This document shows positions 16,412-59,315 of a stretch of DNA of 64,000 nt, piece after piece. The stretch covers positions 769,501 to 833,500 of the forward strand of contig NC_135566.1 of assembly GCF_964340395.1 (NCBI RefSeq), given 5' to 3'. Position 1 is the first letter of the stretch; every line of letters begins with the position of its first letter. The stretch is from Glandiceps talaboti. Its lineage: Eukaryota > Hemichordata > Enteropneusta > Spengelidae. Both the position numbers and the translations under genes were made by a program. The notes beneath the pieces are model-generated. The model worked only from the letters and a program-made list of their open reading frames with translations, made no database searches and was not told the DNA's origin.

Positions 16412-17069
16412 CAAGTGTATTTCTACCATACCTATACATATATTCTAGACATCTCGCTGTATTTCTATCATATCTATACATATATTCTAGACATCTCACT
16501 GTATTTCTATCATATCTATACATATATTCTAGAAATCTCACTGTATTTCTATCATATCTATACATATATTCTAGAAATCTCACTGTATTTCTATCATACA
16601 TATACATATATTCTAGACATCTCACTGTGTTTCTATCATATCTATACATATATTCTAGACATCTCACTGTATTTCTATCATATCTATACATATATTCTAG
16701 ACATCTCACTATATTTCTATCATATCTATACATATATTCTAGACATCTCACTGTATTTCTATCATACCTATACATATATTCTAGACATCTCACTACTTCT
16801 ATCATATCTATACATATATTCTAGACATCTCGCTGTATTTCTATCATATCTATACATATATTCTAGACATCTCACTATATTTCTATCATATCTATACATA
16901 TATCCTAGACATCTCGCTGTATTTCTATCATACCTATACATATATTCTAGACATCTCACTGTATTTCTATCATACCTATACATATATTCTAGACATCTCA
17001 CTGTATTTCTATCATACCTATACATTCTAGATATCTCACTGTATTTCTATCATACCAAAACATTCTAGA
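16412..17069 (+). repeat. 42-bp minisatellite, about 15 copies
   Basis: The unit has TCTAGACATCTCACTG, then TATTTCTATCATA, then TCTATACATATAT. Because 42 is divisible by three, the array stays open in several frames on both strands, giving frames of up to 217 codons of repeated peptide. These are not genes. Confidence 0.95.
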
Positions 17070-19864: not shown

Positions 19865-20005
19865 TGACCCAAAACCGAGACCAATTGACAAAGTGTAGAT
19901 AGTGATTGCAAGTCATTTACATATACAGAAATACAACAAGTTATTCGCTGTCTACAAATTAATTTGATAATTGAATATATATTTTTTAATAGGTTTGAAC
20001 GCTGC

Positions 20006-20801
20006 ATGATGGCGAGGTGTCTGTGTTTACTGGTCATCATTGCTGTGTTCTACTCCGGAGTTCTTTGTCAGGACAGCTGTATATATCCTAGTGTTGGAAT
20101 ACTGCCTGGAGATGTCATTCTAGGTCTTGACTTTTCTTTTCATGGAAGTAACGAAGACCAATCTGGCTGTAATACGTCACATATTCCTATGTTTGACTCT
20201 ATTCAGCGACTAGAAGCAGCCATCTACACCATCAACGAATTGAATGACAAAAACACCATACCTGGTGTCAAAATAGGTAGGCTATATACTTAGTAGTTTT
20301 GTTTGAGGCCCTCGAAACACATGTGTCAAGTCGTTGTCATGGGCGTGGCGGGGTGTAGTAGTCATGGTCTGGGTTAGGTTGTTACTTCTGTGGATGTCAT
20401 GCAATCAATAGACCATCCCATCCCAATCTGATTAAAATCCGATGTAGATGTCGGCTAATCGGGCATTGCTATCTTACCATCGTTATTTAGCTTGAATTGA
20501 CCTTCGTAGTAGATGTTTACGTTTTTAGCCTGATCGCCTCCTTTCACTATATGAAACTAGCAAGATATAATGAGTGACTTTTCGCTTTCTACCTTCAATA
20601 GGTCTTGAAGCCAGGGATTCTTGTTATTCATCTACTATCTCCCAACAACGAAGTTTGGACTATGCTAGTGGTAAAATTGATATCACGAGTGTGACAGGGC
20701 AAGTGTGTCCTGCCACGACCTTACGACCAGGTAAGATGCGTTTTTGTGGTTTTTACTATCTATAAATTTGTATGCACAGAGCACACGATGCAAGTATCTG
20801 A

Positions 20802-20843
<42 letters not shown>

Positions 20844-23800
20844 ATGTCTCTGTTCTTCGTATTTCACTCGAAAATAATTTCACAGGCATTAACTTCGGTC
20901 AAGTTGGTCTCATCAACAATCAAAACCAACTAACATCTGAAACAAAAGAGCTAAATGTCTTATTATAGATTCATGTCTCTCTTGTATTTACAATAGGTGA
21001 AATTTTGGGGAATTCTATTATGCTAATGAACACACAGCCAGTCATCTCGGGTCCAATGGCGCCATTTTTCACGGATCCATTTACAAAGATGATGGACGCG
21101 TCAACTACGGACTTCCAGAAGGTAACTTGTCAGTTTTTACGTGAACCACGCAAGAGTCATTTCTCAGATGCTAGAACTGTTTACAATAAAATTCCGTGAA
21201 GAGACCCATTGTGCCGGTGTACGGTCACGGACAAATCTTGAAATGCCCAAAACAAGCACAAAATTTATCAGTTGAGCCAATAATGCCTCGAACAACCCTA
21301 AAACGAGTAATAAATGTTTGTCTATGCCAACTGTATACTAGTATTTCAAAACCATTGAAATAAAATACACCAGAAAATTGTGCTTAGAATGCCTTCAGTA
21401 ATTACAAGGGGGGGGGGGGTTTCTTCTTCACTTTTTATACCTCGGTTCTAGGGGAGGGCAGTGGTGGGATGAAGTCCTTTCACATTGATTCTGAGACTAG
21501 TGTCCTTTCCATGTCTGACACCATTTAAACCATGTTTTTGAAATATTTTAACAGCGGAGGGGTCATGTTTTAGAGAAGGAAAATTGAGGGAGGGTCACCT
21601 TTTATAAAACGGGGCGGGGAAGGGCCACATTTTACGCAACATACCGGTTTTGATTTCCCCCAGTACTGTAATTACTGAAGTCTCACTTATCTAATATTAT
21701 GGAATGCTCATAAAAGTAACTCAATAACAACTGTTTTTACGTATACATACTAATATTTCACATTTTCATGTTTTGTACACAGGCGACAATAGACTTGGCC
21801 AAAGCACTAGGGTGGTCGTATTTATCTATAGTTTACATCGAGGACACGATGCAAGCTGCTATGGATGGTATCGCTATGGCAACAGACAACAATATCTGTA
21901 TTGCCGGTTCGTATGAAATACATAAAACAGATTCTAGTGGATATGGTGACGTCATCCGATCTCTCATGGATAAACCAGATGCAATAGGTGAATACACGTA
22001 TAGTATCATATCTGTAGCAAATGTAACGTATGACATATAAGAAATGTAATATCAACGGCAACAATTATTTAGGCACTTTTATGGAAATCCTACACAATTT
22101 ACTCGTAGATAATTCTGAATATTAACAGTCATATCAAACTAGAGGTAAATTTTCCAGACATACTTCAATGAACCTCAACTCAACTCAACTTTAAACTGAA
22201 GCATTTCAAGCTCACAAATATTACTTTTAAAGTCAATCACGTATAATTTCCGCCTTGTTTGTTCAATATTGCTTGTCAGAGTAAGCACGGGGCCATCTCG
22301 GCCAAAGTGATGAGATCAAACCACAGTAATAATTCAGACCCATGGCACTGCCATTACTTTCAACATTAACACTCCCTCTCAATAGGTACAACGTTGTCAA
22401 TATAGACACCCTGCTTTTTCTTTGAAATTTGACATTCACATCGACCAACTGGCCTAAATACTTCAAGTAGACTGCCACTACTTTCAACATTTTCATTCCC
22501 TCCGAATCATACCTTTACAGCATAGTCATGTCATAAATGTATCATTGAAGTTTTCCGTATTTATGTACTTTTACAGGTGTCATTCTACTACTTGACTTCT
22601 CTGATACGTTAGACAGCTTCTTTTCATCGGTTGAAAATTACTCGTTTGGTAATACGGAATTTAATTTGGTATGGATAATTCCGAATATTGGTTATGCCGA
22701 ACCGATTCTCCAAGCACATGAGAATGTCACACGTGGTGCGATTGGTGTAGGAGCCGCCTCTCCAGAAATTGAAGACTTTCTAGTCTATTTTCGAAATCTG
22801 GGTCCAGGCAACATCAATACTACGTCAGATCCCTGGTTTGAACAATATTATCAGACGAAGTACAAATGTGATATAGCTAGCAACACCAATTATGGTGTCC
22901 AATGCGACCAAACTGTTGCTGACAAACACAAATTAACTCAACAAATCCAAGGCGTGCCAACTGTCATGAACTCCATCAAAATACTAGTTGAAGCTGTGAT
23001 GGCTGCCCACACCCAAGTATGTCCAAGTGACGGATTTTGTGAACAGCTTGCAAATATTCCGGACTACGCACTCCTTGGCTATGTGAATGCCGTCGATTTT
23101 ACTGGCTACGACAATAGTGATATAAGTTTTAGTTCGAGTGGGGAATTCATTCCACAAATCGATATTCTAAATTTCCAGTCTGATGGTAATGGTGGATATG
23201 CTTTGATGCAGGTAAATATGTTTTTTTTACTTGACTTTTGAGGTGATATATGGGTAGAAACACGTACTCTGAAGGTTCATATCTGTACAAATGCCGTGAA
23301 AATAAAGACAAAGAAGTGCGTCACTGTATATCATTCTACATATATGATACGAAACAATTTCTTACTGGTAATTTATGTCACAGATAAATGTGAAGTAACT
23401 ACCCGTGAATTGTCCAAAACAACCCTCATACTGGACGATTTGCTTCTTATTACTAAACCTAGTATGTATCAAACACGAGATGAGTCATAATAACTTTCGA
23501 TTTCCTTAAAGAGTTAAAGGCCTATAATTCAATGCTATGTTATAACATTTTTGGTATTTCAAAATAAAATTATTCAGTTGTCCTGGACCAACCTTTTCTA
23601 TAGCTCTGTCAGTTAACTGTTTTCACATGAATTTCCATCCTTATCTAAACTGGGCATTCAGAGCGAGACGTAATACTGTAGAATTATACACATTGTCGGG
23701 CCAACAGGGCCTAACATGGGGAGGGGTATAAGGTAAACTGTAAGATGGAGATATGTAATGATATGTTTAAATTGTATAAATTAGGAAAATTACAAATATT

Positions 23801-26403
23801 TTTTTGTCAGCGTTGATATTCAGAAAAATAACACTTGAAAACTCTTCACTGTATGTGTGTTGTTTGTCATAAATGTACATACATGTCATTATCAGACAAA
23901 TAGCTAAGCTAAACATAGAGTTTCCGTTACTTACGTTAGATTCCTTTATCGTATTAATTTTGACAATACATGTTGTGTTTACTTTTAGGTTGCTAACACA
24001 ATGACACTGAATACAGGAGACTCAGTCCGTAATGTTACTAAAGTGTGGCAAAATAATGTCGAGTATATAGCTGATGACGTCACTTCTATGTGTTCAGCTC
24101 CATGCAATGATGTCAACTGTCAAGCAATGAACGACATGTCTTATATACAGGGGGACATAACACTTGGGGGAATGTTTGCTGTTCATTTTGAAGGTGAGAC
24201 TCCCGACAAATGTGGGCCTATCCACCCAACAGGTGTTATACGATTAGAGGCAATGATGTATGCTATAGACAAGATCAATGCCGACAACAATATCCTGCCT
24301 GGTTTAAAGCTTGGTATGATAGGTGGAGATAGCTGTTATTCCGCTAAGCAAATAAAACAGAAGACGATGGCTTTCATTGGAGCAGCTGATTTTAGTAAAG
24401 GTGTTGTCGGTGTACAGACGTCACCGATAGGACAGAGAACACATATCATGGGAACTATTGGTACTACACGTAGTAGCCTAGCCATTGCAATGAATGATGT
24501 TACACGCATCCTCATGGTACCACAGATTGCATACAGCGCCACAAGCCCGTTGCTAAGTGACAAGGAGATGTTTCCTAACTTTTTTCGCACTTCTCCATCC
24601 GATCGTCACCAAGCGAGAGTGATGATACACATTGCCCAAAGTCTTGGATGGAAGTATATTCAAACCATAAACAGTGATAGTGCCTATGGTAATGCCGGTG
24701 TTGAAGCTCTCAGACAATATGCTAGAACTGTAAGTGTAATTTAAGTTCAGCATATAGTAATAATTTATATTTCGTCGTCATTGTCATACCAATCACCATA
24801 TCACGTAATCAATATTAAAGTATGGTCCTTGTGCACATCATTAATAGTATGTTAGTTTTTTATATAGCTCTTTCCTACATTACTCAAAACGCTTTGAAAT
24901 CATTATCAATGGTACAGACCTATAGCGGCACAGGGGCACTTTTATACTTCCTCATCTAGAAAACACGCATTCCATTGCAGCTCTGTAAGTGCAAAGTATA
25001 AGGTAGTCATATAGCAACCTCTAATCGCCATATTTATACAGCTGGGCTGACTAGGACACAAACTACAACCTGCATCCTTCTCAGGTCAGTTACTCTAAAC
25101 CATTCGACCATCACGACCCCACTTGTCATGTAGACTATGATACATGTCATGTATTGCCATTATTGTAGGTTGCTGATCTCTGTATTGCTAGTTCACACGT
25201 GATCAAAGACAGCAGTAACAACGATGAAATGGACTCTCTTATCAACCGACTCCTCTCACGAGCTGAAGCCAGGGGACTGCTCGTGTTTTTGTCGAATACT
25301 GACAGCCGAGCTTTGCTGCAAAAATTCACAGAAGAGGGTCTCCAAGGAAACTTCTCTTTTGTCGCTGCAGATGCTTGGGGTATTAGTAGTGACGTCATTA
25401 ATACGTTAGAATCAGCAGCTGCCGGTAAGTAAACTGGTACGAAGGCTGTCGATATATAGAAAATGGGTTGGTTGTTGGTAGGTTAGTCTACCTGTATAGT
25501 AGATCCGCGAACGGAGCGCAAATTCAAAAAATTCAAAATATCAGTTAGGATTGCGGAATAGCGTACGGATAGCCGTTCACAAGTCTACAGGTAGGCTACA
25601 ATTAGGATAGCAGAATAGTGTAGGGATAGCCGTTCACAAGTCTACAGGTAGGCTACAATTAGGATTGCGGAATAGCGTACGGATAGCCGTTCACAAGTCT
25701 ACAGGTAGGCTGCAATTAGGATAGCAGAATAGTGTAGGGATAGCCGTTCACAAGTCTACAGGTAGGCTACAATTAGGATTGCGGAATAGCGTACGGATAG
25801 CCGTTCACAAGTCTACAGGTAGGCTACAATTAGGATAGCAGAATAGTGTAGGGATAGCCGTTCACAAGTCTACAGGTAGGCTACAATTAGGATAGCAGAA
25901 TAGTGTTGGGATAGCCGTTCACAAGTCTACAGGTAGGCTACAATTAGGATTGCGGAATAGCGTACGGATAGCCGTTCACAAGTCTACAGGTAGGCTACAA
26001 TTAGGATAGCAGAATAGTGTAGGGATAGCCGTTCTCAAGTCTACAGGTAGGCTACAATTAGGATAGCAGAATAGTGTAGGGATAGCCGTTCACAAGTCTA
26101 CAGGTAGGCTACAATTAGGATAGCAGAATAGTGTAGGGATAGCCGTTCACAAGTCTACAGGTAGGCTACAATTAGGATAGCAGAATAGTGTAGGGATAGC
26201 CGTTCTCAAGTCTACAGGTAGGCTGAAGGTAGGTAGGCCATGAATAAGAAACCCACCCTAGCTTTACAGCATACCGTAATTTAACTAACAATTACAACAC
26301 TATATATTGTATGTATGTATGTATGTATGTATGTATGTATGTATGTATGTATGTATGTATGTATGTATGTATGTATGTATGTATGTATGTATGTATGTAT
26401 GTA

Positions 26404-26497
<94 letters not shown>

Positions 26498-29400
26498 CTT
26501 TATTTGTTAAGTTCTTTTGTGTCACTTCTTGTGTACGCGGATAAATAAATATGTGTGTGTGATTAATTAACAAGATGGTCTCTTTCTGTTTCATTGGTGG
26601 ATAATTTGAATGTTGTTAAAAACAAATCCACTGGATTGTGACATCATAAATAGTTGGAAGACTACTAGTTGTATTGATGCAAGTCACCTTTGAAATGTAG
26701 ATGTTTAGTTGACTAATTCCTAAAATTTAAATTTTGTGTAAACTACTTATTATTAAAAATGATATCTCAAGTCAATGATCTCTAGCAGGTACGTACAATG
26801 TAAATAAAACTACTTGGAAGACAAACTAGTTTTATTAAATTGTAGTTGTATCCTCGACAAGAGCTTAACCCTGCATGAATATGATTTTTCCCTACCAGGA
26901 GCCATTGTCATCCTCCCAACTACAAATTCCGATTTATCGAATTTCGCTTCCTACTTATTATCCCGGGAAGTCGACAACAATCCAAGGAATCCGTGGTTCA
27001 GATCATACTGGATGCATAAATTTCAGTGTCAACTGTCGGGAGAATACTCCACCTTTGGTGCAATGTGTCCAGGTAATATATACTATTTCTTCTGGTGTAC
27101 ATAAATATTATATTCCCATAATCCCATTGTGCATCCAGACAGTCGTTCTCTTCATATGAAGTACACATTCTATTTTGGTTTTCCTAATATACATACATGT
27201 ACTAATTATATATCGTATGTGTAACGTCATTTGGAATCATGCAACCTGTGTGAGGTATGACAGGCATCTAAAGGGGGTACACGTTGAGTTTATACGTTTT
27301 GGGGTATATTTTTTGCTACTTATCTCAAAGATACTCGTAGTATTCTGAAAGCATACTATTACTTAAACCATCGCTTGCAATTGACAACTCAAACCTGGAG
27401 TTAAGATATAACTTATAAACGACCCGATGACGTAATTTATTGTACGTGTAAAATGTCCAGGAAATTTTCTTACAATTGCATAAGACAATTGTAATGTCAT
27501 AGACGGCATTTATCGACATTAACATGATTGTACTAAAATAGTTTAATCTAGTTTTTGTGTGTAAGTATTTTCACTGGTATAAACTCTGCTTGTATCACTT
27601 TAAGAAATCATTACAGTGAGTTTCTTGAAACGACAAACTGACGAACTTGGAAATATTCCACATTTTCACAGACGGTCTATCACTTAGCGCTGAGGACGCC
27701 AATGCCGACTATGTAGCCAACACAATAGATGCTGTCAATGCCATGGCTTTAGCAATCGACCAATTACACAAACAGAAATGTCCTGGATCAGCTGATATAT
27801 GTGACAACTTTCTGACGTCATCATCAGAGGAACTTCTTGACAAACTTCGCGCAGTTTCATTTGAGAGTGCAACAGGGCTAGGCAACTTTGAATTTGACGA
27901 ATACGGCGATGGCAAACCTATGTATACTGTGTATAATCTACAGAAGGATACATCGACGTCACTCTACGCATATAACAAGGTACAGTAGCTATCAGACAAT
28001 ATAAAAGTGTATGCCATGACAGATACCATGCTTTTAGAGAGTTCAAGTAAGGTGCCACTGATAAATAATCAATTTTATGAAATGTTGATAAATCAGAAGC
28101 TATTCAAGATACAGCACGTTCTATTAATCAAATTCACTTTTGCTGGACTGGTGAAAACCTCAACCCAAATGCTTTTACCTTACAGTAAATATCAGGTATG
28201 GAAACATAATGTTTGTAAATATGACTTCATGATGCGGATATCGATGTTTATTTTGATAATTTAATGTTGATATAACGAGTGGACTCTTCATTTAAAGAAG
28301 GTTACAAAGTGTGTATAAACTTTAAAGTAGAGATGCTTCTGTAGTTTTGACTGTGAAAGAAACTGAAAGTTCCATTTATCACAAAATTTATAATCATTGG
28401 TGCATGTTGTTTTGATCCAGGTTGGTAGTTGGGAGGACAATACACTTGACATGAATGATGGCGTAGTCATATTGTACGATTCTGATGGTGAACCAATAAA
28501 TCCAACTGACAGTTTCGAATCAGATTGCAAATCCAACGGATCATGCGCGGAATGTGTTAAAAGTGAAATCACCTTTGCGCATATGGATGGTCACATCGAA
28601 ATCCCTGTATTGTTTGGTATCAGTGAACAAGGTGAAAATACACTGCTGTGTGGTGACGTCTTAAATGATCAGGTCATTAACGTTGAGGCCATTTTGTTTG
28701 CATTGGACAAAGTTAACGAGGACGATACGATTCTACCCGGAGTGACGTTGGGGGCGACAATCATCGATACATGCTCAAGCCCCCAGCGTGCAATGTCACA
28801 GACTCTGCTGGCCTTAATCGGTGATTCCAAGTTTGGCAACAATCCGGACAACACAATGGCAATCATTGGTGCAGTGTTAAATGATGTTTCCATGGAAATG
28901 CTGCGAGTAACAGATGCTGTCAAAAAATCGCAGGTATGTATGGGCCACAATTTATATTTAATATAGACATTTTTAAAGATTTGATTCTGAAGCATGTTCT
29001 ATGTAGAGTGAAAAACCGCCAAATGTTGTTTTGAAGAGACGCCCTCTTGCCTTGTCTTGCCTCACTGTGTCTGCCGGTAGACAGTGGTGCAATGTTAGAG
29101 TTACTACAGTATAATACCTTGACAAAAACAGAACACTTTTTTCCTATTTTTCGGTTTGTTTGTTTGTTTGTACATGAAATATTAGATGAGAGAAAACTAA
29201 AACCATCATATACAGATACATTTGAAATGTGTGTTATCATGGAAGTATAACCGTGGGTGATACTTCAATGGTTCTATTTATAACTTTACCTTTTTTTTTG
29301 CCTGTTACAGGTTAGTTTTGGGTCATCGAGTATAGAACTGACTAAAGAGAGATATCCCTACTTTCTGCGTACAGTACCAGTTGATGATAGGCAAGCTGAA

Positions 29401-32400
29401 GTTATGGTCAGCATACTGAAGAAATACGATTGGTATTATGTATCGACAGTCAGGTCAAATACTTCCTATGGCCAGACGGGAATGGAAGATTTCATGACGA
29501 AAGCTAACGATGAGGGCGTCTGCGCTGCTGTACAACTCACTATACCTTCGAATCCAACTCAGAGAGATTATGTTCGTATCATTACAGATCTTATTACCGA
29601 AGGAGACAAAAAAGGTTCCAATGTAGTTGTGCTCTTCACGAGTCAAGAAGACACTCGAAATTTATTGAAATATGCGGAGACGAAAGCTAAGACTTACTCG
29701 AAACAGTCCTATCATTTCACATGGGTTGCACCTGATTCGTGGGGGATAAGCCTTGATGTCGTGGAGGGATATCTGGACCATGCCAAGGGCGCTTTGACGA
29801 TCATTCCTCTGCAACCATCCATGCCTGAGTTTGAAGAGTACATGGAAAGCCTAACACCCATAAGCAATACAAGGAATCCGTGGTTCCGTTCACTCTGGGA
29901 AACCATATTTGATTGTAGGCTTAGACTAGACGAATTCAGCAGCAGAGAAAGTGCCTATTGTACTGGCGATGAGGATCTAAGAGCAGGACACACTTCAGAA
30001 TTACATAGTGCACTTTCTTCATATGCAATAGATGCTGTCTATGCAATTGCAACTGGCTTACACAATCTGCGCCAGAAAAAGTGTCCTGGACGTAATTTAT
30101 GTTCCGAATTTTTCAACTCCGACCCCGAGGATGTCCATCAGGAGATAACGAATGCAAGAGTTTCTCAAAGTGCCACTGGTCGACCATTCTCATTCTTAGA
30201 AGGTGCAGGGGAGGGTGAATACGCAATTATGAATTATGTGCTTGAACAGAAAGATGAAAACACTACATCTGGAAAATATAGAAAGGTAAGTTTCCTTTTC
30301 ACAAGTCTTCCTGCTAGACCCCCTCGGACTATACTGCTCACTGTGAAGGCGACTGAGGGAGCTGGCCCGTGCTTTATTCTTACTTGTTTAGACAAATCTG
30401 TGACGTACGTACTGCCATGGATATGTAAATTAATGAATATGATTATTTGATAGTCAAATTACTTACTATTCTTTAACTCTAGTGTACATATTTTTAAAAG
30501 AGACAGTATGCACGTGGTCGTGTGCATGGTTACATTGACTATCGACCTAATTTATTGCTTGTTATATATAACGGTTACTAATGACAATTTCCACATCCTA
30601 AATAATTCCAAGTAAAAATAAATGATATAGGAAACTATATAGGAAACAAAATAATGATAATTGTAAATCGTGAAAATAAAGGCAATAACACAACACAACA
30701 CAGCACAGCACAGCACAGCACAGCACAACAAAACAAAACAAAACGTAATGCAACACAACTTAGGACAACACAACACAACATAACATGCAAGTTTTTAGAC
30801 CAGTGCAGTGATTAGTTTTCCTTTATACCTTTAGGTTGGAGAATGGCTTCATGGAACACTGACGATGAGTGGAGGAGAGGTACAATTCTTTGACTTCCGT
30901 GGTAGCAACACGTCATCTGTTGATTCTCGTTGTCCATCAGTTTGCCGTGTCTGCTACACGCAAGGCATTCCAAGTGTTGAAGTACCAGAAATGGCACCCT
31001 TGGTATTTAATGGCGATTCAATCTGGGGGATTATCATCATTGCTATCATTGTTCTTATGATAGTATTTTGTTTCGTTATCTTCATCTATTTCTTAGTTGA
31101 ATTTCGTAATCCCGTAGTCAAGGGAGCATCTTCTAGCCTCAGTTATTTCTTACTTCTTGGCATCACGTTACTACTGCTTGAGAACTTTGCTTTCATGTTT
31201 GAACCTACTCGGATCGTATGTGGATGCCGACGATTTGGCCTTGGGTTTTTTCATGTCCTTATTTGGAGTGCCCTTTTTTGCAAAGTCGTTCGCATTTTGC
31301 GCATCTGTGGTACAGGAGAAATCAACAGCAGAGTACCATTTGTCAGTCCTTGGAGTCAAACCTTTCTTTTGTTGGCTCTTCTCTTAGTTGAAGTGATTTT
31401 GGTTGGCGAATGGTTGATCCTTGATCCACCTGCAGTGTGGCATGAAATCGTGGAAACAGGAATATCTCCTCCATTCAAAGTAGTTTTTCATTGCAATTAT
31501 GAGAACAAATGGATGGTGGCATCTCTTATCTACGCATTTCTACTGATACTGCTCACATTTTGGTGTGCTTGTAAGGCCCGCAAGTATTCAGATCTTGTCT
31601 ATGAAGGTGCCTACATTCTCTTTACCACTATCGCATCAATCTTCATCATGGTTGCTTGGTTACTCGTGTACTCACTTGGTGATGAAGAGTACCAAAACCC
31701 TGCAGTATGCATTGGTATTACTTCAAACGCCATTATTATCCTGGCAGCCATCTTCTTGCCAAAGATTACAGCCCTGACATCAACGGAAGAGAGAGCACAG
31801 GATGGACCAGCAACTGGCAATGACATGGGCAAATCATATGTCTACAGTAATCCAGGTAAGGGTAGAATCAAATAGCCATCTTTCTCAAATAAGTTACCAT
31901 TTACACACCAAGTTATGTCAAATTTACAGTAATATTGTTGAATAGAGCACAATGATAGGAGGACTGTGAATAGACAAAATGATCCTTGTAAAAAGTTTGT
32001 AAATAAACAAATTGTTTCACCATGACAGATAGAGAAATGAATCCCTTGGCAATTTCTGCATGTTTTACAACCAATTTGCAATTATCATGACAACATTGTT
32101 TTGCCATCCCCTTTTCTTCTGATATCGTGTTTATCTCATACTTGTCAGAATACACCAAAGAAGATAATAACAACAACTGTTATGATCTCTGCAATATGTA
32201 AATACTACATGTGTAGATATTAGGCATACTGTTTTTAGTTTAATTTTAAATGGACAGTATATGGTTTCTGCTCGAATCTGATGAACCATCATTTTGTCAT
32301 TCAGTTATCACTTTCATGGCATAAAAATACAATACATATATTTTCCTGCATGAATTTATTTTAAAAACAAAATACATTTACCATTTGATCATCTGTAGAA

Positions 32401-33367
32401 ACATACTGTTATTATATTTTATGTTTGCTGGATGGAGTTTAAACTTATTTAATTTGGTACTTCACATATGTAGAATTCTTTGACCAAGATGACTACGTAG
32501 TGGAATCTACAACTTCTATTTAACACCTGATGATATATAATAAGTGGAAGATTTGGTAGGAGAGAAAGATATACTTTCAAATCGTTGACTTGTGTGTGAA
32601 CTGTTTAGTTTGTGTCGCTATAATTTCAGAGGCCATGTGCAATTTGGTAATGTTTTGTGTGAGGCACATTTAAAGTAATGATAAGCACATGTTTGTTGCA
32701 ATACATGTATATGAAACAGTACGTTGGTTTGTTGAGTACTCAAAGACATCAAATTAATTCTTGTTGCGAGCTGTATGTACGATAAAACAATGGCACTACA
32801 CACAGCTCATTGTCTTTTACTATAATCTAAAAAATATGCAAATAGAGGTAACAAGAAAATGAAAAATTTTGATAATTACAAATGTCAATAATATTTGTGA
32901 ATAAATATTAATTGACTTACCGCTAATAAATGTAGATATATATATATAGATTTACACAAGAAAGGAGTGTTTGCATAAAATGGTCAAATGCTATCCTTGT
33001 CCATGAGGCTCATAAATTTGCTGACCAACGTGCTTTTTGTGAACAGGTGTTAAAAGTTATCTGACACTGTAATATTTTAGTTGAAATACATAAACATGGG
33101 TATAATATAATAAATTTGTAAGGATATCATGACAAACTATGCGAAATATGCACCCCTCACACACAGACACAGACATGCACACACACAGCCATGCAAACAC
33201 CCCCCACACACACACACAGACTATGAATAGACTCTTTGTATTCATCAATTTAACATTTAAAATTGTCATATATATCAATGTAACATTTACAGAATTATCA
33301 TCTGACAAAGGTTTCCCTGTTTTTTTTTCCAGATGTAAACAAAGATGACGAAGTCACTGCATTTTAG
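20006..33367 (+). CDS. Class C GPCR, metabotropic glutamate receptor-like, with three tandem Venus-flytrap domains
   Basis: Coding exons: 20006-20276, 20602-20730, 20997-21121, 21783-21987, 22577-23211, 23989-24729, 25169-25424, 26899-27072, 27672-27979, 28421-28933, 29311-30285, 30835-31855, then 32474-32523 or 33333-33367. All junctions are GT-AG and phases agree, giving about 1,800 residues. Order: signal peptide (MMARCLCLLVIIAVF); flytrap 1 (about 27-440); flytrap 2 (about 508-945) with PQIAYSATS, WKYI and RNPWFRSYW; flytrap 3 (about 1006-1440) with YPYFLRTVP, WYYVST, SYGQTG and RNPWFRSLW; a short Cys linker; seven transmembrane segments (about 1507-1750) with FRNPVVKGASSSLSYFLLLG, CRRFGLG, FVSPWSQ, DPP and LPKITAL. 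These stretches match mGluR landmarks. The canonical nine-Cys domain is replaced by short linkers holding three to five Cys. Role inferred: plasma-membrane receptor for an amino-acid-like ligand coupled to G proteins. No stop or polyA signal separates the flytraps. Flytrap 1 is the most diverged, and its exon 3 region is unclear. Confidence 0.85.
20804..20842 (+). repeat. (TCTG)n microsatellite in a receptor intron
   Basis: About nine TCTG units between receptor exons 2 and 3. Confidence 0.93.
20886..20968 (+). other. Unresolved exon of flytrap 1
   Basis: After acceptor TTTCACAG the frame continuing exon 2 reads INFGQVGLINNQNQLTSE, which fits the missing strand before QPVISGP (compare MGTIGTTRSSL in flytrap 2). 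The frame ends in TAG at 20966-20968 and I see no good donor before it that keeps phase. Either a rare donor is used, it is an isoform-ending exon, or it is a decayed exon now skipped; skipping keeps the receptor frame. Confidence 0.4.
21391..21680 (-). mobile_element. Element with terminal inverted repeats, copy 2
   Basis: Left end GCCTTCAGTAATTACAAG plus a G run; right end C run and TGTAATTACTGAAG. The interior, read on the minus strand, has GGTGTCAGACATGGAAAGGAC, shared with 37562-38190 and 10043-10792. At 290 bp it is a shortened copy. It sits in the receptor intron 21122-21782. Confidence 0.65.
25535..26224 (+). repeat. 57-bp minisatellite, about 12 copies of two types
   Basis: The shared part is CCGTTCACAAGTCTACAGG, then TAGGCTACAATTAGGAT. 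Type A continues TGCGGAATAGCGTACGGAT and type B AGCAGAATAGTGTAGGGAT. The order reads A B A B A B B A B B B B. It lies in the receptor intron 25425-26898. Confidence 0.95.
26309..26495 (+). repeat. (ATGT)n(CTGT)n compound microsatellite
   Basis: About 24 ATGT units pass into about 22 CTGT units, in the same receptor intron as the 57-bp array. Cys/Val/Met frames here are artefacts. Confidence 0.97.
30687..30784 (+). repeat. CACAA/CACAG pentanucleotide tract
   Basis: Pentamers CACAA, CACAG and AAAAC in the receptor intron 30286-30834. Confidence 0.92.
32474..32523 (+). CDS. Alternative last coding exon 1 of the receptor
   Basis: After acceptor CATATGTAG, phase fits the exon ending at 31855. 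It encodes EFFDQDDYVVESTTSI then TAA. The end T-S-I fits a class I PDZ-binding motif, as seen on several mGluR tails. AATAAA at 32900 and 32925 could end this form. Confidence 0.6.
33333..33367 (+). CDS. Alternative last coding exon 2 of the receptor
   Basis: A pyrimidine-rich acceptor (TTTTTTTTCCAG) in the right phase joins to 31855 and encodes DVNKDDEVTAF then TAG. The end T-A-F also fits a class I PDZ motif. AATAAA at 34178 and 34281 are possible polyA signals. Intron retention after 31855 would instead give GKGRIK and a stop. Confidence 0.6.
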
Positions 33368-33732
33368 CTGTATAAGTTGTTTACACGTACTAGTGGACAT
33401 TTGTGGCAACACAGGAGAATGACGGGATATCTCTCATCATCTGTACTGTTGGACCCCTTATGATGATAGACACAGTACAAACCTTGACGTCAAACTGAAG
33501 GAACTGAACATTGAATAAGCTTAGTGGAATCGTACATTTGACTATGCATTGACGATCATGTACAGTAGATGGTATATAAGATTTCAATATCAATTGACAT
33601 GTTAGAATTGCTTTTGAAATATTTTGTCTTTTTTGAACAAACTGTAAATACACTTTTGAATGCTGGGAGTGAACAGTATGTACCATGGTATAGCTGGAAC
33701 ATGTTCTAGCACTGATGTGGCAAATTTACCGC

Positions 33733-33868
33733 GGTCTCCTGGAAGTGTACGTGCACTGGACAGTGCCATGGTCTCCTGGAAGTGTGCACTGGACAGTGCC
33801 ATGGTCTCCTGGAAGTGTGTACTGGACAGTGCCATGGTCTCCTGGAAGTGTGTACTGGACAGTGCCAT
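33733..33868 (+). repeat. 33-bp minisatellite, 4 copies
   Basis: The unit includes GGTCTCCTGGAAGTGTGTAC and TGGACAGTGCCAT. As 33 is divisible by three, it gives false frames on both strands. Confidence 0.93.
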
Positions 33869-35074: not shown

Positions 35075-36370
35075 CTGACAAATCAAAATTGTGAACTACA
35101 GGATGTCTTTAAATATATGGCAAGGTAGAGATATATTTCTGACAAATCAAAATTGTGAACTACAGGATGTCTTTAAATATATGGCAAGGTAGAGATATAT
35201 TTCAGACAAATCAAAATTGTGAACTACAGGATGTCTTTAAATATATGGCAAGGTAGAGATATATTTCTGACAAATCAAAATTGTGAACTACAGGATGTCT
35301 TTAAATATATGGCAAGGTAGAGATATATTTCAGACAAATCAAAATTGTGAACTACAGGATGTCTTTAAATATATAGCAAGGTAGAGATATATTTCAGACA
35401 AATCAAAATTGTGAACTACAGGATGTCTTTAAATATATGGCAAGGTAGAGATATATTTCTGACAAATCAAAATTGTGAACTACAGGATGTCTTTAAATAT
35501 ATGGCAAGGTAGAGATATATTTCAGACAAATCAAAATTGTGAACTACAGGATGTCTTTAAATATATGGCAAGGTAGAGATATATTTCTGACAAATCAAAA
35601 TTGTGAACTACAGGATGTCTTTAAATATATGGCAAGGTAGAGATATATTTCAGACAAATCAAAATTGTGAACTACAGGATGTCTTTAAATATATGGCAAG
35701 GTAGAGATATATTTCTGACAAATCAAAATTGTGAACTACAGGATGTCTTTAAATATATGGCAAGGTAGAGATATATTTCTGATAAATCAAAATTGTGAAC
35801 TACAGGATGTCTTTAAATATATGGCAAGGTAGAGATATATTTCAGACAAATCAAAATTGTGAACTACAGGATGTCTTTAAATATATGGCAAGGTAGAGAT
35901 ATATTTCAGACAAATCAAAATTGTGAACTACAGGATGTCTTTAAATATATGGCAAGGTAGAGATATATTTCTGGGAAAACAAAATTGTGAACTACAGGAT
36001 GTCTTTAAATATATGGCAAGGTAGAGATATATTTCAGACAAATCAAAATTGTGAACTACAGGATGTCTAAATATATGGCAAGGTAGAGATATATTTCTGA
36101 CAAATCAAAATTGTGAACTACAGGATGTCTTTAAATATATGGCAAGGTAGAGATATATTTCTGACAAATCAAAATTGTGAACTACAGGATGTCTTTAAAT
36201 ATATGGCAAGGTAGAGATATATTTCTGACAAATCAAAATTGTGAACTACAGGATGTCTTTAAATATATGGCAAGGTAGAGATATATTTCTGACAAATCAA
36301 AATTGTGAACTACAGGATGTCTTTAAATATATGGCAAGGTAGAGATATATTTCTGACAAATCAAAATTGT
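35075..36370 (+). repeat. 64-bp minisatellite, about 20 copies
   Basis: The unit runs CTGACAAATCAAAATTGTGA, ACTACAGGATGTCTTTAAAT, ATATGGCAAGGTAGAGATAT, ATTT. Copies are nearly identical, differing mainly by CTGAC versus CAGAC at the junction; one copy lacks three bases near 36068 and one has CTGGGAAAA near 35971. Confidence 0.97.
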
Positions 36371-36545
36371 GATGTCTAGAAATCAAAATTGTGTTCTGAA
36401 GGATCTCACTGACTACATGACAATTGTAGAAAATGAGAGATGTATGTCACATGCAATAGTGGGCATTGGTTTGAGAAAATGGCTACAAAGAACAATACAC
36501 ACTGAATCTGGAATGCACTCTTAGCAGTTTTACCTTTATTTATAG

Positions 36546-38479: not shown

Positions 38480-41220
38480 TCAGTATCTATTCAATCCAAG
38501 ACTTGCTTGAAATGACCTCCCATCACCTAAAGTGGCTTGCTGAAATGTACAAAAAAATGTGGGTTGTTGTCATGTGATGGGGATGTTGTCAGGTGATGCA
38601 AAAGAAAGAAAATTCAATGTAAGTATTTGTACATACTAATGACTAATATTCAGCAATATATGAAACTTAAAAACTTTACCAAAATATGCATCTTATTTGC
38701 ATATGGAGTGTTTTTTATTTGGAAATATAAGCTTTGATTATGCTTCCTTTTTCCATAGTCATCAAATATCCAAACTTTATAAGCAATTATTTATTTCTTT
38801 CATTGCTACATTACAATACTAAAAATACAATATTTAGACATAACAGTATAAGTGCATCTATGTACCTTGTACATTCAAAACACTGCAGCCTTTCTTGGAC
38901 ATTATTGTACAAGCAGTGTCATTTCTGCTACTATCACAATCAAATGTTATATAGTAGTAAATTAGTTTACAGCTTACCTTATTTATTTCTTTATGTCTTT
39001 CTTTACTGACAATTTCTTCTAAGATTTCTCCATCCCCCTTGACAAGCCTATAAGACAAAATAGTGGTGCAGTCAGTATGCTTTAATTACTCTCTTGACAG
39101 ACGTCCATGTCTCCATCCAGATCTTACATTCCTCCTTTACCAACACTCTCATCATTTGACTCCTCTCCATCAATCTTTCCTTTCCCATATCTCTTCTTCA
39201 TCCTCTCACATCTATCCTCTCTGGGCAGATAATACTTTCCCTTATTTGATCTTCCATCCCTAGCCCTTCCCCCTTCCTCTCTCAGGGTCTCACATCTACC
39301 TAGTCTGGGTATATATGTCTTTCCACTGTATGTTCTCCCATCCCTTTTTATACTATCCTATGTGTTATCTTTTTATTCTTCAACTCCTCTCATTTATCTT
39401 TGTGTAGGTATAATATACAGACACCACATGCGTAAAGATATTCTATTTTGGGGTCTTACCTGGTTCTCCCTGTTTCAGGATCAAATACTCTTCTGACAAC
39501 ACTTTGTTGTTTATCCCATTGTTCTTTTGTCATAGGAGCCATTGACCTTACTGGTCTACTCTCATCATCTACACTCGGTGCTGGTCCTGGGAAAGATCCT
39601 GGGAAAGATCCTGGGAAAGATCCTGGCACTTGGGCATCAGCTGGGAAAGGTCCAGGTATCGGGACATCAGCTGCAGAAAAACAGTTTTACCATTTACTGG
39701 ATTATTGGGTATTTATTTGGATTTTTCAAGAAGGAAACCATGATAAACTTGTTTTATAAATCCAAAATCCAAAATCCAAAATAAATGGCAAATCCTCATC
39801 CCACATGGCCACTTTAATCCTTCATATTAGTAGAAGTACCTGTAATACTAGTCATTGCTGGTACTTTACACATTGCATAAACATGTGTGTAAATAACGGG
39901 AATAAAAATTCAACACCATTTATTTGTCAACAACTTGTAAATTTGTGGGATGCCGATAGACTTGATAACTGGATGATCCTACATGCTTTAGAAAGCACAC
40001 CAACAACACAGAGAAGTAGAAAAATAAGAACAGATAGTGTGTATAAAATACTAGTAGTGCAAGTGACAGAATTCTATTTTTCCCAAACTTGTAGATTTTT
40101 ATGTACAATCAAACCCCACCACCCCCACCCCCACCCCCACCCCGGTAGAAAGAGGATTAACAAATGGTAGCTACTTCAATATTTCACCTTTTTGTTTTTG
40201 TTTGGCCAACTTCTTTGCTTTCCTAGCCTCTGCTTTCATCTTCTTTTTCATCTTTTTCTTTAACTTTTTCTTTTTTCTCTTGATTCGCTTCTGTTTCATT
40301 TTCTTTTCCCTGTGTCTTTCAACTGATGAATCACTACTGCTACTACTACTGCTAGACTCACTATCACTGGAACTACTGCTTGAATTCTTCTTCTTCCTAC
40401 ATTTCCTCCTTCTCTCTCTTGAAGAATCAGAACTACTACTAGAACTTCTGGTTCTCTTTTTCATAGCTTTTTTGTTTCCTTTATTCCTTGATCTACTTGA
40501 ACTATGTCTTCTCTTGGTCCCCCTTTCATTTGACCTTGACCTTGACTTTTGTTTGTGGTCTCTGCTAAAAGCAGACTCTCCAAATCTTGCATCTTTCCCC
40601 TTGGCACGACTGTCTGATTTATTATCACTCTTTTCACTTGCAAAATTACTGTATTGGTACATCTTTGGCACTTCTTTTTTCTGTCTGACAGATTCTGTCC
40701 TACTTGTCTTCTGTCCTTGTTCCCTAGATTTACTGGAAATGTCTTTTCTGTGACTTCTCTCACTATGATCTCTTCTACCTTGGGAACTATGCCTGTCACT
40801 GTCATACTCACTTTGTCTGTGCCTGTCATGTTCACCATGTCTGTCCCTCCAATGTTCACTGTGTCGTTCACTGTGTCTATCTATGTCTCTCACCCTATCA
40901 TGTTCATTATGTCTATCTCTGTCACCATGTCTGTCAAACTTTCTGTCACCATCTCTCCTGTGTCTATCACTTTGTCTATTTGGAGACACATCTCTGCAAT
41001 GTCTCTCTTCATCTCTTCTCTCTGCATCTTTCTTTTGTGAATGATCATTGCTTTTATTTTCAGATATATGTTTTACATTTTTATGATAACCTGACTGGTG
41101 TTTGTTAGAAGAAAAATATCTTGGTGAGCGACTTCTAGGTCGTCCATATCTTGGTGAATGACTTCTAGATGGTCCATATCTTGGTGAATGACTCCTTGAT
41201 CTTCCACGTGTTTTTGACAT
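38480..41220 (-). CDS. ARL6IP4: ARL6IP4-like RS-rich nuclear splicing-associated protein
   Basis: Exons (minus order) 40188-41220, 39460-39670, 38978-39047 and 38480-38539 join in frame into 457 residues. Residues 1-344 are an RS/RD/RH-rich, Lys-rich low-complexity region beginning [16 protein letters not shown], with a Ser run and a Lys block. A short [13 protein letters not shown] repeat follows. The end is the conserved family tail: [48 protein letters not shown] and [15 protein letters not shown]. In mammals the protein (SRp25) localises to nuclear speckles and nucleoli and modulates splice-site choice. The start at 41220 precedes the first RSHSPRYG repeat. The N-terminal part is longer than in the human form. 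POP5 lies head-to-head 1.9 kb away. Confidence 0.92.
39590..39631 (-). repeat. 12-bp coding repeat in ARL6IP4
   Basis: CCTGGGAAAGAT-type units in tandem on the plus strand encode Pro-Gly-Ser-Phe repeats in exon 2 of ARL6IP4. Family members vary in length here. Confidence 0.8.
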
Positions 41221-41305
41221 CTCAAATTTAAAATAAAAAGGAAAGTATGTTAAAATTACAAATGATGTGAAGACAAAATATTTTATGTGTTCTCTTCCTA
41301 CAATA

Positions 41306-41393
41306 GACTGTAAGATACATCGTTATGTTTCGCCCTCACCGGCCTCCTCTCTAGGGGTTGGCCGATGTGTGAGGGTGCCCCGACCTTACAGAC
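41306..41393. mobile_element. Possible small inverted-end element
   Basis: The ends AATAGACTGTAAG and CTTACAGACTATT are near-perfect inverse copies; CGCCCTCACCGGCC and GGCCGATGTGTGAGGGTG inside pair as well. Similar GTGAGGGCGC...TTACAGACT pieces occur near 48209-48244 and 53006-53043, suggesting a dispersed MITE-like family. Confidence 0.45.
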
Positions 41394-57804: not shown

Positions 57805-59315
57805 ATAGTAATACAAGTATTACCTACAACATAAATTGTGAAATTAAACACGTTTTTAATAATTTGACACCACTTACCTTATTGTAATTATCAGTATATA
57901 GTGAATTTCCCAATCCAAAGATAACATACTGTAGTCCTTGTAATAATGTCTTTTGTACTCTGAAATCATTACTTGCCTCTTCTACCCACTTAAAGAACCA
58001 TTCTGTTTTCTCTGGTGGCTGGCCATCAGTGTATGATGACACTAGAAATACACATACCTTCTGTCCATCAGCCTGGAAATATCAACATTACTCTGTTACA
58101 TAGGGTAGTAATATTCTGAATATTCTGATAAAGAACGTTTCTCTTTCATCTACTCTTCATCAGGTGATCAACATTATTGATACAATGTATCACAATGTAT
58201 ACAAAATATTATTCCCAATATTTTTCTTTGTTCAGCTTAGGAAAACATGGGTGACCTTAGGGACCTTGTCACTACAAGTCACATGATAGTAGGGGGCATC
58301 AACATTCAAACAGCTGATAGTAGAGAGTATTAGCATTCAAACAGCTGATAGTAGAGAGTACTAGCATTCAAACAGCTGATAGTAGAGTATCGGCATTCAA
58401 ACAGCTGATAGTAGAGTATCAACATTCAAACAGCTGATAGTAGAGCGTATTAGCATTCAAACAGCTGATAGTAGAGAGCATCGGCATAAACAGCTGATAG
58501 TAGAGAGTACTAGCATTCAAACAGCTGATAGTAGAGTATCGGCATTCAAACAGCTGATAGTAGAGAGTATTAGCATTCAAACAGCTGATAGTAGAGAGTA
58601 TTAGCATTCAAACAGCTGATAGTAGAGAATATTGGCATTCAAACAGCTGATAGTAGAGAGTATTAGCATTCAAACAGCTGATAGTAGAGAGTATTAGCAT
58701 TCAAACAGATGATAGTAGAGAGTATTAGCATTCAAACAGCTGATAGTAGAGAGTACCAGCATGCAAACAGCTGATAGTAGAGAGTACCATTAGCATTCAT
58801 CACATGTTTGACAAGGAAGAAGAACTCATAACTGATATTGAAATAATTAGAGAAATACCTTACCTCATTGACAAGATTATCTTCTGGATCATAGCTTTTT
58901 AGGTTAATTAGCTCAGATGTCACACCATGTTTGCTTGCCTCTTTACTCATGATATCTGCAAAACGCTACAGTAGTTCCAAATCATAGAAGAGATATAAGT
59001 CAATGCTGAACATCCACACAATATCCACATGATATTTCAGTAAAATCTGTGCAAATCAACCATTTTGTATTTGCCAAGTACATGGTGTCTCAGACTAATA
59101 TTATCATTTCATATATAAATTCCTGGTATAAACTCTTCTAAATTAAAGACATGATTCTGTTTTACTGGTTGAAATAATATAAGAATAATCCAATATAAAA
59201 TAAAACTAAGGTGCCAAATACCATCAATTCACAGACTGTGCCCCTTTAATCTTGACTGTTTGACCTTCACAATATCTGACATATATTTCATAGAATTGTA
59301 AGTTTATGCTCCGGA

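Follow-up and report, generated by a model that had tools for sequence, protein, structure and literature searches.

We predict that the locus at positions 20006–33367 of the window, a 64,000-nucleotide stretch of contig NC_135566.1 of the hemichordate Glandiceps talaboti, encodes a single class C G-protein-coupled receptor (GPCR) with three tandem Venus-flytrap domains (VFTs) on one seven-transmembrane domain (7TM); the gene is likely a member of an ancient family of animal receptors with several flytraps per chain. To our knowledge, known class C GPCRs have one VFT per subunit, a rule that the Glandiceps product, with both VFT and 7tm_3 matches, breaks. Searches of open-access papers aimed at this layout brought up no description of a multi-VFT class C receptor, consistent with an earlier note on this DNA that knew of no receptor with this layout.

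Gene structure and domain layout

The exon chain assembled here comprises 13 exons and 12 introns on the forward (+) strand and runs from an ATG at 20006 to a TAG at 33365–33367, a span identical to that of the earlier note; its predicted product has 1795 residues and no internal stop. All 12 introns have GT-AG borders with phases that agree throughout, which bears out the in-frame exons described in that note. Exon 1 (20006–20276) holds the start codon, the signal peptide (about residues 1–22, judged by eye) and the start of VFT1, and has a homologous N-terminus in protein P0002 of Ptychodera flava. VFT1 continues through exons 2 (20602–20730, also in the NCBI model P0001), 3 (20997–21121) and 4 (21783–21987) and ends in exon 5 (22577–23211) at a phase-0 border. 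Exon 6 (23989–24729) carries three-cysteine linker 1 (residues 456–505) and lobe 1 of VFT2, which extends through exons 7 (25169–25424) and 8 (26899–27072) to a phase-0 border at the end of the domain in exon 9 (27672–27979). Linker 2, also with three cysteines (residues 949–1000), and lobe 1 of VFT3 lie in exon 10 (28421–28933), and the remainder of VFT3, up to a phase-0 border, lies in exon 11 (29311–30285). Exon 12 (30835–31855) contains linker 3 (residues 1445–1495; 51 residues with three Cys between VFT3 and the 7TM), the 7TM (residues 1496–1765, nucleotides 30988–31797) and the start of the C-terminal tail. Exons 3, 4, 7 and 8 were placed by the exon chain, and exons 5, 6 and 9–12 by the exon chain and Pfam. 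Exon 13 (33333–33367) encodes the final 11 residues, DVNKDDEVTAF, and the stop TAG; this C-terminus is the same in P0001 and in the Saccoglossus protein P0020 and near-identical in P0002, and 26 of 30 tail residues are identical between Glandiceps and Ptychodera.

NCBI lists a single Glandiceps gene for the locus, LOC144449214 (protein P0001), whose model replaces exon 1 by an alternative first coding exon (20339–20372, + strand) and so lacks the signal-peptide exon that is backed by Ptychodera. No second copy was found in the window, all 21 tblastn matches of the four modules falling inside the gene, and neither Rfam nor a tRNA scan gave a match in the window.

Pfam agrees with the exon chain on one receptor with three flytraps and one 7TM, as the earlier note had it: ANF_receptor (PF01094) matches three stretches (E 3.5e-139), corresponding to the three VFTs, and 7tm_3 (PF00003) matches once (E 3e-45, 155.3 bits, cutoff 33.5). 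NCD3G (PF07562) had no Pfam match in the product at E 0.01. The hydrophobicity profile (Kyte-Doolittle, 19 residues, above 1.6) has one N-terminal stretch and the next only at the 7TM. Sequence identity is 30% between VFT2 and VFT3, 25.5% between VFT1 and VFT2, and 19% between VFT1 and VFT3; the first of these values speaks against the assembly collapse that the earlier note had raised as a possible error. Phase-0 introns bound the module of VFT2 as well as that of VFT3, at the same site before a V(A/G) motif. Identity between Glandiceps and Ptychodera climbs toward the membrane, from 42% in VFT1 through 51% in VFT2 and 58% in VFT3 to 68% in the 7TM.

AATAAA or ATTAAA hexamers occur 19 times in 20001–33800, two of them (23301 and 23563) inside the VFT1–VFT2 junction intron and none in the VFT2–VFT3 junction intron; because the gene span has a GC content of 38%, they are expected by composition and are uninformative alone. 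Of the claim that no stop, start or polyA signal separates the modules, the part on internal stops stood, and the part on polyA signals did not, given these two hexamers.

Receptors with several flytraps in other phyla

The earlier note had suggested a database search for other three-flytrap receptors. Our three homology searches, which detect a protein only if it has short words in common with the query and falls within a set length range, yielded 50 proteins, of which 38, including the Glandiceps entry P0001 itself, have at least three full VFTs followed by a 7TM. These members, with three to five VFTs each, come from hemichordates, echinoderms, molluscs, nemerteans, an annelid and a horseshoe crab: three VFTs in both hemichordates, four or five in echinoderms, five in the named molluscs, two nemerteans and Capitella, and four in Tachypleus. 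Chance is excluded as the source of the layout because P. flava P0002 (1784 residues) also has three VFTs and a 7TM; it is 55% identical to the Glandiceps product over residues 450–1795, the part searched. NCD3G is absent from all 38 members in the precomputed Pfam column. In all nine "lgn" members the longest contig is 6.4–11.1 kb and the open reading frame (ORF) occupies 78–98% of it, so that these entries look like mRNA assemblies. No vertebrate or insect member is among the 50 proteins found, which, given the reach of the searches, is no proof that vertebrates, insects, cnidarians or amphioxus lack such receptors. The multi-VFT genes are named "uncharacterized" or as mGlu2, mGlu3 or mGlu8 types, and this naming may hide the layout.

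The 12 proteins left out of the count are P0010 and P0015–P0025: P0010 has two full VFTs, a partial third and a 7TM, with three stretches in Pfam; P0015 is a fusion of two genes; a 7TM is missing from P0016 and P0021, each with two VFTs, and from P0017, which has three VFTs and a weak TIR match; and P0018, P0019, P0020, P0022, P0023, P0024 and P0025 complete the set. Saccoglossus P0020 (708 residues) has one partial VFT, starts mid-lobe of VFT3 and lacks a signal peptide; we read it as a 5'-truncated model, the alternative being a short isoform.

Phylogeny of the flytraps

The main VFT tree, like the pocket and cysteine tables below, covers 12 receptors (the window model plus 11 of the remaining 37 members) with 52 VFTs; the tree also holds two mGlu VFTs. 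The first VFTs of all 12 receptors form one clade (support 96/92), which suggests that two or more VFTs were likely present before the protostome–deuterostome split. Hemichordate VFT2 groups with the starfish middle VFTs and with VFT2 of Antedon and Holothuria (98/94), hemichordate VFT3 groups with the echinoderm last VFTs (97/95), and at each of the three positions the hemichordate VFTs cluster with echinoderm or protostome VFTs. Forcing the six hemichordate VFTs into one clade, a grouping set by the claim of the earlier note, was 88.8 log units worse and was rejected (AU p 5e-9). Single clades of ambulacrarian VFTs (AU p 0.0025) and of protostome VFTs (AU p 0.001) were also rejected, with p values weakened because these two groups were chosen after the tree had been seen; one cross-phylum clade of all last VFTs was neither rejected (AU p 0.197) nor recovered, so that VFT3 and mollusc VFT5 are at most candidate orthologues. 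In a quick tree of 60 rows, which additionally included Mercenaria b and the Gigantopelta protein P0022 with its one VFT (both omitted from the main tree), the first-VFT clade had an SH-aLRT of only 83, and VFT2 of Antedon and Holothuria were placed elsewhere.

Pocket residues and a putative dimer cysteine

Pockets were scored, by a strict and a lenient rule, at the alpha-amino-acid backbone positions Ser165, Thr188, Asp208, Tyr236 and Asp318, and for the glutamate side-chain at Arg78 and Lys409 (all mGluR1 numbering). By the strict rule, VFT2 and VFT3 have 5/5 and 3/5 backbone residues in Glandiceps (Asn occupies the Ser165 position of VFT3) and 5/5 each in Ptychodera, and VFT1 has none in either species, a count that hinges on the alignment because two of the five positions in hemichordate VFT1 are gaps and Ptychodera VFT1 shows the pocket Ser in a second alignment. 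That second table (20 family receptors and four other proteins) gives the same pocket residues for Glandiceps VFT2 and VFT3. At Arg78/Lys409, Glandiceps has R/G in VFT1, R/Y in VFT2 and N/L in VFT3, and none of the 52 VFTs in the 12 receptors has both residues; in Capitella VFT1 the Lys is present and the Arg78 position is a gap. Because VFT2 has all five backbone residues and an incomplete Arg78/Lys409 pair, we infer that its ligand would be an alpha-amino acid other than glutamate. An amino-acid ligand is no family-wide rule, because 31 of the 52 VFTs, including all nine of Tachypleus and Capitella, lack a complete pocket even by the lenient rule. The starfish last VFTs are incomplete (Asterias 3/5, Acanthaster 2/5), in contrast to Ptychodera VFT3.

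A cysteine lies within 8 residues of the mGlu3 loop cysteine, which we take to be the position that bridges mGlu dimers, in 12/12 first VFTs and 4/40 other VFTs, and within 3 columns of it in VFT1 of 8 of the 12 receptors. Since the first VFTs carry a cysteine near this position, the Glandiceps receptor may well dimerize; this cysteine in VFT1, together with the missing amino-acid pocket residues there, argues for unequal roles of the VFTs rather than three equivalent sensors. Several ligands per receptor and six flytraps per dimer, as the earlier note had proposed, remain plausible possibilities. Linkers with at least three Cys number 44 of 52 in the 12 receptors.

Comparison with known receptors

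The best solved relatives are mGlu3 for VFT3 with the 7TM (E 3.4e-94, among the best 60 of 122 matches), mGlu8 for VFT2 (E 3.2e-78, among the best 60 of 113), mGlu3 for VFT1 (E 1.8e-31) and mGlu3 for the 7TM exon (E 4.4e-31, 111.7 bits, pairwise scores). The closest solved 7TMs, those of mGlu3 and mGlu2, point to G-protein coupling. The predicted model of P0020 matches mGlu cryo-EM chains (best E 6.4e-40, TM 0.45). The likeness to mGlu2, mGlu3 and mGlu8 thus extends over VFT and 7TM sequence, the P0020 fold, the VFT2 backbone residues and the VFT1 cysteine position; the Glandiceps receptor differs in having three VFTs rather than one, in lacking the nine-cysteine NCD3G and in its broken Arg78/Lys409 pair.

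In GABA-B, according to the part of the source available (PMC12716839), the VFT precedes the 7TM without NCD3G, as in Glandiceps. GABA-B differs in its one VFT, and we rejected this assignment as the Glandiceps 7TM scores far lower against GABA-B (25.6 bits, E 6.5e-5) than against mGlu3. The calcium-sensing receptor was set aside on its VFT2 score (138.7 bits versus 266.9 for mGlu8, best 60 of 113 matches) and the missing NCD3G; no T1R is among the best 60 of 122 matches of VFT3 with the 7TM or the best 60 of 113 of VFT2. The invertebrate Venus kinase receptors, whose VFT has been compared to mGlu1 and is reported to bind amino acids, carry one VFT on a tyrosine kinase, as far as the excerpted source goes (PMC2680970). 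Tandem VFTs in one chain also occur in the bacterial sensor kinases BvgS and EvgS, described in partial sources as having two VFTs on a histidine kinase; with this unrelated output, they offer an analogy only.

Alternative explanations

The rival with the strongest case, which we nonetheless consider rather unlikely, is that one flytrap only (VFT2 or VFT3) senses and the others serve as spacers or as adhesion or allosteric modules, holding the sensor off the membrane or setting dimer geometry. The empty pocket of hemichordate VFT1, the drop in conservation away from the membrane and the incomplete pockets, by the lenient rule, in 11 of the 14 VFTs of Mercenaria a, Haliotis and Tachypleus would all suit a single sensor; against it stand the complete pockets of both VFT2 and VFT3 in Ptychodera, the pairs of complete pockets in Mercenaria a (VFT1, VFT5) and Asterias (VFT3, VFT4), and Tubulanus with 5/5 in all five VFTs (lenient rule). 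A divergent mGlu receptor that senses glutamate and has added flytraps is improbable. Although mGlu is the best solved relative of each part and Arg78 persists in VFT1 and VFT2, Lys409 is replaced in VFT2 and VFT3 and Arg78 in VFT3, the pair is intact in no family VFT, and NCD3G is absent. Both residues are replaced in mGluR class IV, which is read as loss of glutamate binding in the accessible part of its description (PMC6307864); Glandiceps VFT2 differs in retaining Arg78, and that part of the text makes no mention of more than one VFT.

We hold it highly improbable that two or three adjacent class C genes were merged by the gene model and the earlier note alike. Such fusions exist, Mugilogobius P0015 (VFT-7TM-VFT-7TM with two NCD3G) being one, and the hexamers in the VFT1–VFT2 intron and the 7TM-less models P0016 and P0021 could be read likewise; yet the sequence between the VFTs is free of 7TMs, signal peptides and hydrophobic stretches, the layout recurs as one ORF in Ptychodera and 36 others of the 50 proteins, ORFs fill mRNA-sized contigs in nine members, and VFTs group position by position across phyla. 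We therefore rejected separate genes and an artefactual fusion, and likewise a collapsed assembly, because the layout recurs, ORFs fill short contigs and the modules are 19–30% identical to one another. Least credible is that the intragenic triplication by which the earlier note had explained the receptor took place recently and within the hemichordates: the phase-0 borders of VFT2 and VFT3 suit exon-module duplication at some date, but the low identities between VFTs and the grouping of each hemichordate VFT with other phyla oppose a recent one, and a hemichordate-only event was rejected by the AU test under the model used.

Proposed mechanism and significance

The reading that we moderately favour is a three-VFT class C GPCR of an ancient family, acting as a VFT1-clamped dimer in which VFT2, and probably VFT3, senses amino acids. 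The receptor would likely dimerize through a clamp at VFT1, the outermost flytrap; binding of an alpha-amino acid other than glutamate by VFT2, and probably VFT3, would close the flytrap, and closure would be relayed along the chain to the single 7TM, which would couple to a G protein. In mGlu-type class C receptors a rigid cysteine-rich rod relays flytrap closure to the membrane; here the short three-cysteine linkers would have to pass the signal without a full cysteine-rich domain. The protostome–deuterostome ancestor likely had at least two flytraps, and later gain and loss would have led to three to five.

More tentatively, and at somewhat less than even chances, the members may form an undescribed pan-bilaterian class C family in which three to five flytraps strung along one chain, with three-cysteine hinges in place of the nine-cysteine domain, sense combinations of amino acids: the flytraps would differ in the ligands that they recognize, or divide the work as gate and sensor, and the 7TM would report the sum. 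If so, the fold would allow serial input through three to five flytraps, and the family, which spans ambulacrarians, spiralians and a chelicerate, would offer a test of whether mGlu-type signalling needs a full cysteine-rich domain.

Gene model and domain layout

The receptor gene comprises a chain of 13 exons on the plus strand (window 20006-33367), whose reading frame of 1795 residues is closed by a TAG stop codon at 33365-33367; all 12 introns are GT-AG and their phases match. Three ANF_receptor stretches, the Pfam counterpart of the Venus-flytrap domain (VFT), and one 7tm_3 seven-transmembrane domain (7TM) were identified in the product, and the Pfam scan detected no nine-cysteine domain of mGlu receptors (NCD3G) in it. 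A 19-residue hydrophobicity scan gave one N-terminal stretch and the next ones only at the 7TM region, so no membrane-like segment lies between the flytraps. Exon chain, Pfam and hydrophobicity scan thus agree with the span and the layout of three flytraps and one 7TM that had been claimed from the sequence in the earlier note. The accompanying statement that no polyA signal occurs between the modules was wrong: AATAAA is present at 23301 and 23563, in the intron between VFT1 (the outermost flytrap) and VFT2, as is expected in AT-rich introns. VFT2 (exons 6-9) and VFT3 (exons 10-11, nearest the 7TM) each have phase-0 introns at their borders, immediately ahead of a V(A/G) motif, an arrangement of the kind that exon-module duplication would leave.

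Intron 7 contains a minisatellite of 57 bp x 12 (25545-26224); the window holds many, including those at 16416-17054, 35075-36372 and 58284-58786. On the minus strand, a serine- and arginine-rich stretch of 383 codons, open from stop to stop (40174-41322), matches an SR-25 splicing protein weakly (22.3 bits, under the cutoff of 40) and is likely a neighbouring gene.

When residues 450-1795 were searched, the top database match was the uncharacterized protein of NCBI LOC144449214 from the acorn worm Glandiceps talaboti, with 100% identity. The NCBI model (P0001), of 1716 residues, omits exon 1 and starts at the ATG at 20339, with an alternative first exon (20339-20372) that replaces exon 1 and lacks a signal peptide; this start probably needs correction in the annotation, or else reflects an alternative promoter. 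At its N-terminus, the relative from Ptychodera flava (P0002) has a hydrophobic leader and then a VFT1 start resembling exon 1 of the Glandiceps gene, and its C-terminus, GNDMGKSYVYSNPDVNKDDELTSF, resembles Glandiceps exon 13. Because both ends are shared, the model including exon 1 is likely the fuller version of the gene. Identity between the two species is 12/31 in the leader, 180/424 in VFT1, 224/443 in VFT2, 257/444 in VFT3, 184/270 in the 7TM and 26/30 in the tail, and is lower in the linkers (17/50, 16/52 and 25/51).

A family of multi-flytrap receptors

The earlier note had called for a search for other three-flytrap receptors. Three protein-collection searches yielded 50 different proteins (rows representing 90%-identity clusters, not species), in which VFTs were counted with an iterated profile derived from the flytrap modules of the window itself, together with a 7TM profile. 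At least three full VFTs followed by a 7TM were found in 38 of the 50, P0001 included, and the precomputed Pfam column lists NCD3G for none of these 38. There are three VFTs in Glandiceps and Ptychodera; four in Acanthaster, Patiria, Antedon, Holothuria and Tachypleus; and five in Asterias, the named bivalves and gastropods, the nemerteans Tubulanus and Lineus, and the annelid Capitella, where the phyla are those we presume from the organism names. Pfam counts agree with the profile for P0002 (3), P0003 (5), P0004 (4), P0006 (5), P0008 (5) and P0014 (5). One member, P0029, has three full VFTs and part of another, and its sequence seems to be missing its start. The picture is less simple for P0016 and P0021, each with two VFTs but lacking a 7TM; these may be broken gene models.

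For nine members labelled 'lgn', the longest contig measures 6.4 to 11.1 kb, and the open reading frame would occupy 78 to 98% of it. This points to assembled mRNAs, provided that their genes contain introns like the Glandiceps gene, and although they come from outside Glandiceps, these members are the best evidence here for single-transcript multi-VFT receptors.

Mercenaria and Lymnaea have two entries each among the relatives (P0009, P0013 and similar); it seems that, besides the main receptor, molluscs possess another with five flytraps that has diverged more. The searches also returned P0017 from the alga Prymnesium parvum (2622 residues), which combines three flytraps with a weak TIR domain and lacks a 7TM: tandem flytraps on a different output. 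P0015 from Mugilogobius chulae (1498 residues; VFT-7TM-VFT-7TM, with two NCD3G) looks like two adjacent class C genes merged in one model and shows how a false fusion appears.

In searches of open-access full text, mostly titles and the starts of abstracts, no description of a class C receptor with several flytraps was found, and the tandem-flytrap matches were bacterial sensor proteins; as far as these searches show, the layout is undescribed. In the parts consulted, a 2025 GPCR survey covering relatives of animals gives the animal layouts as ANF + NCD3G, ANF alone, and Cache + EGF (PMC12716839), a paper on crown-of-thorns chemoreceptors reports mGlu3 and mGlu7 with ANF + NCD3G and no multi-flytrap receptor (PMC6267866), and the main text of a 2018 survey lacks the words 'tandem', 'Venus' and 'ANF' (PMC6307864).

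Origin of the flytraps

A tree was built from 56 flytraps: the 52 of 12 receptors (the window's model and 11 other members), two mGlu VFTs and a fish pair. Across ambulacrarians and protostomes alike, the first VFTs of the 12 receptors formed a single clade (bootstrap 96, SH-aLRT 92). Hemichordate VFT2 grouped with the middle VFTs of starfish and the second VFTs of Antedon and Holothuria (98/94), hemichordate VFT3 with the echinoderm last VFTs (97/95), and the protostome last VFTs with one another (94/96). A quicker tree of 60 rows, with mGlu left out, retained the first-VFT clade (SH-aLRT 83) and placed VFT2 of Antedon and Holothuria elsewhere. In AU tests, monophyly was rejected for the six VFTs of hemichordates (p = 5e-9), and likewise for the 23 ambulacrarian (p = 0.0025) and the 29 protostome VFTs (p = 0.001), the latter two groups having been chosen only after the tree had been seen. 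Because of the first-VFT clade and these rejections, the divergence of the first flytrap from the rest is likely older than the protostome-deuterostome split. VFTs 2 to 4 of Asterias lie close together; the starfish middle VFTs multiplied later. Since the mGlu VFTs are placed, with weak support (81/61), between the clade of first VFTs and the remainder, the string of flytraps may have arisen by duplication or by the joining of two genes.

Putative ligand pockets

In mGluR1, the amino-acid backbone is held by Ser165, Thr188, Asp208, Tyr236 and Asp318 (PMC2680970, in the part consulted). By alignment, all five are conserved in Glandiceps VFT2 (Ser, Thr, Asp, Tyr, Asp). At these positions Glandiceps VFT3 carries Asn, Ser, Asp, Tyr and Asp, and Ptychodera VFT3 has the complete set. 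VFT1 has none of the five in either species, with two of the positions falling in alignment gaps, and a second, different alignment shows the Ser in Ptychodera VFT1. Across the 12 receptors, all five residues are present in 10/52 VFTs under a strict rule and in 21/52, spread over ten receptors, under a lenient one (S/T, T/S, D, Y/F, D/E), by which Tachypleus and Capitella still have no VFT with a complete pocket. Arg78 and Lys409, called critical for glutamate in the part consulted of the 2018 survey (PMC6307864), are R/Y in Glandiceps VFT2 and N/L in VFT3, and occur together in none of the 52 flytraps. The ligand of the Glandiceps receptor we infer from such residues.

Linkers, predicted dimer and signalling

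The 7TM is closest in sequence to mGlu3 and mGlu2, and by analogy we would guess at Gi coupling as in those receptors. For the Saccoglossus relative P0020, AlphaFold2 gave a model (partial VFT3, linker and 7TM; mean pLDDT 75.2, pTM 0.52) to which Foldseek matched full mGlu chains; the relative placement of flytrap and 7TM in the model is not trustworthy (TM about 0.45, rmsd about 20). A class I PDZ-like C-terminus, by a permissive pattern, is found in 13/41 rows, including Tachypleus and each of the ten ambulacrarian rows analysed, with the window's model and P0001 counted as separate rows; in Glandiceps it is encoded by exon 13 (33333-33367). YxN occurs within the last 60 residues in 31/41 rows. 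Signalling by the Glandiceps receptor is a prediction from its sequence.

In mGlu receptors, a loop cysteine bridges the dimer. A cysteine lies within eight residues of this position in 12/12 first VFTs versus 4/40 others, and within three columns in 8/12 versus 0/40; this enrichment suggests a clamp at the outermost flytrap, where the loop cysteine of VFT1 would hold a putative dimer together. Behind each flytrap is one linker (cut by script at 40 to 120 residues, including the last 12 of the preceding flytrap), and 44 of the 52 contain at least three cysteines. By eye, the linkers resemble the beginning of the cysteine-rich domain of mGlu receptors, in whose place these short cysteine linkers would act as a hinge.
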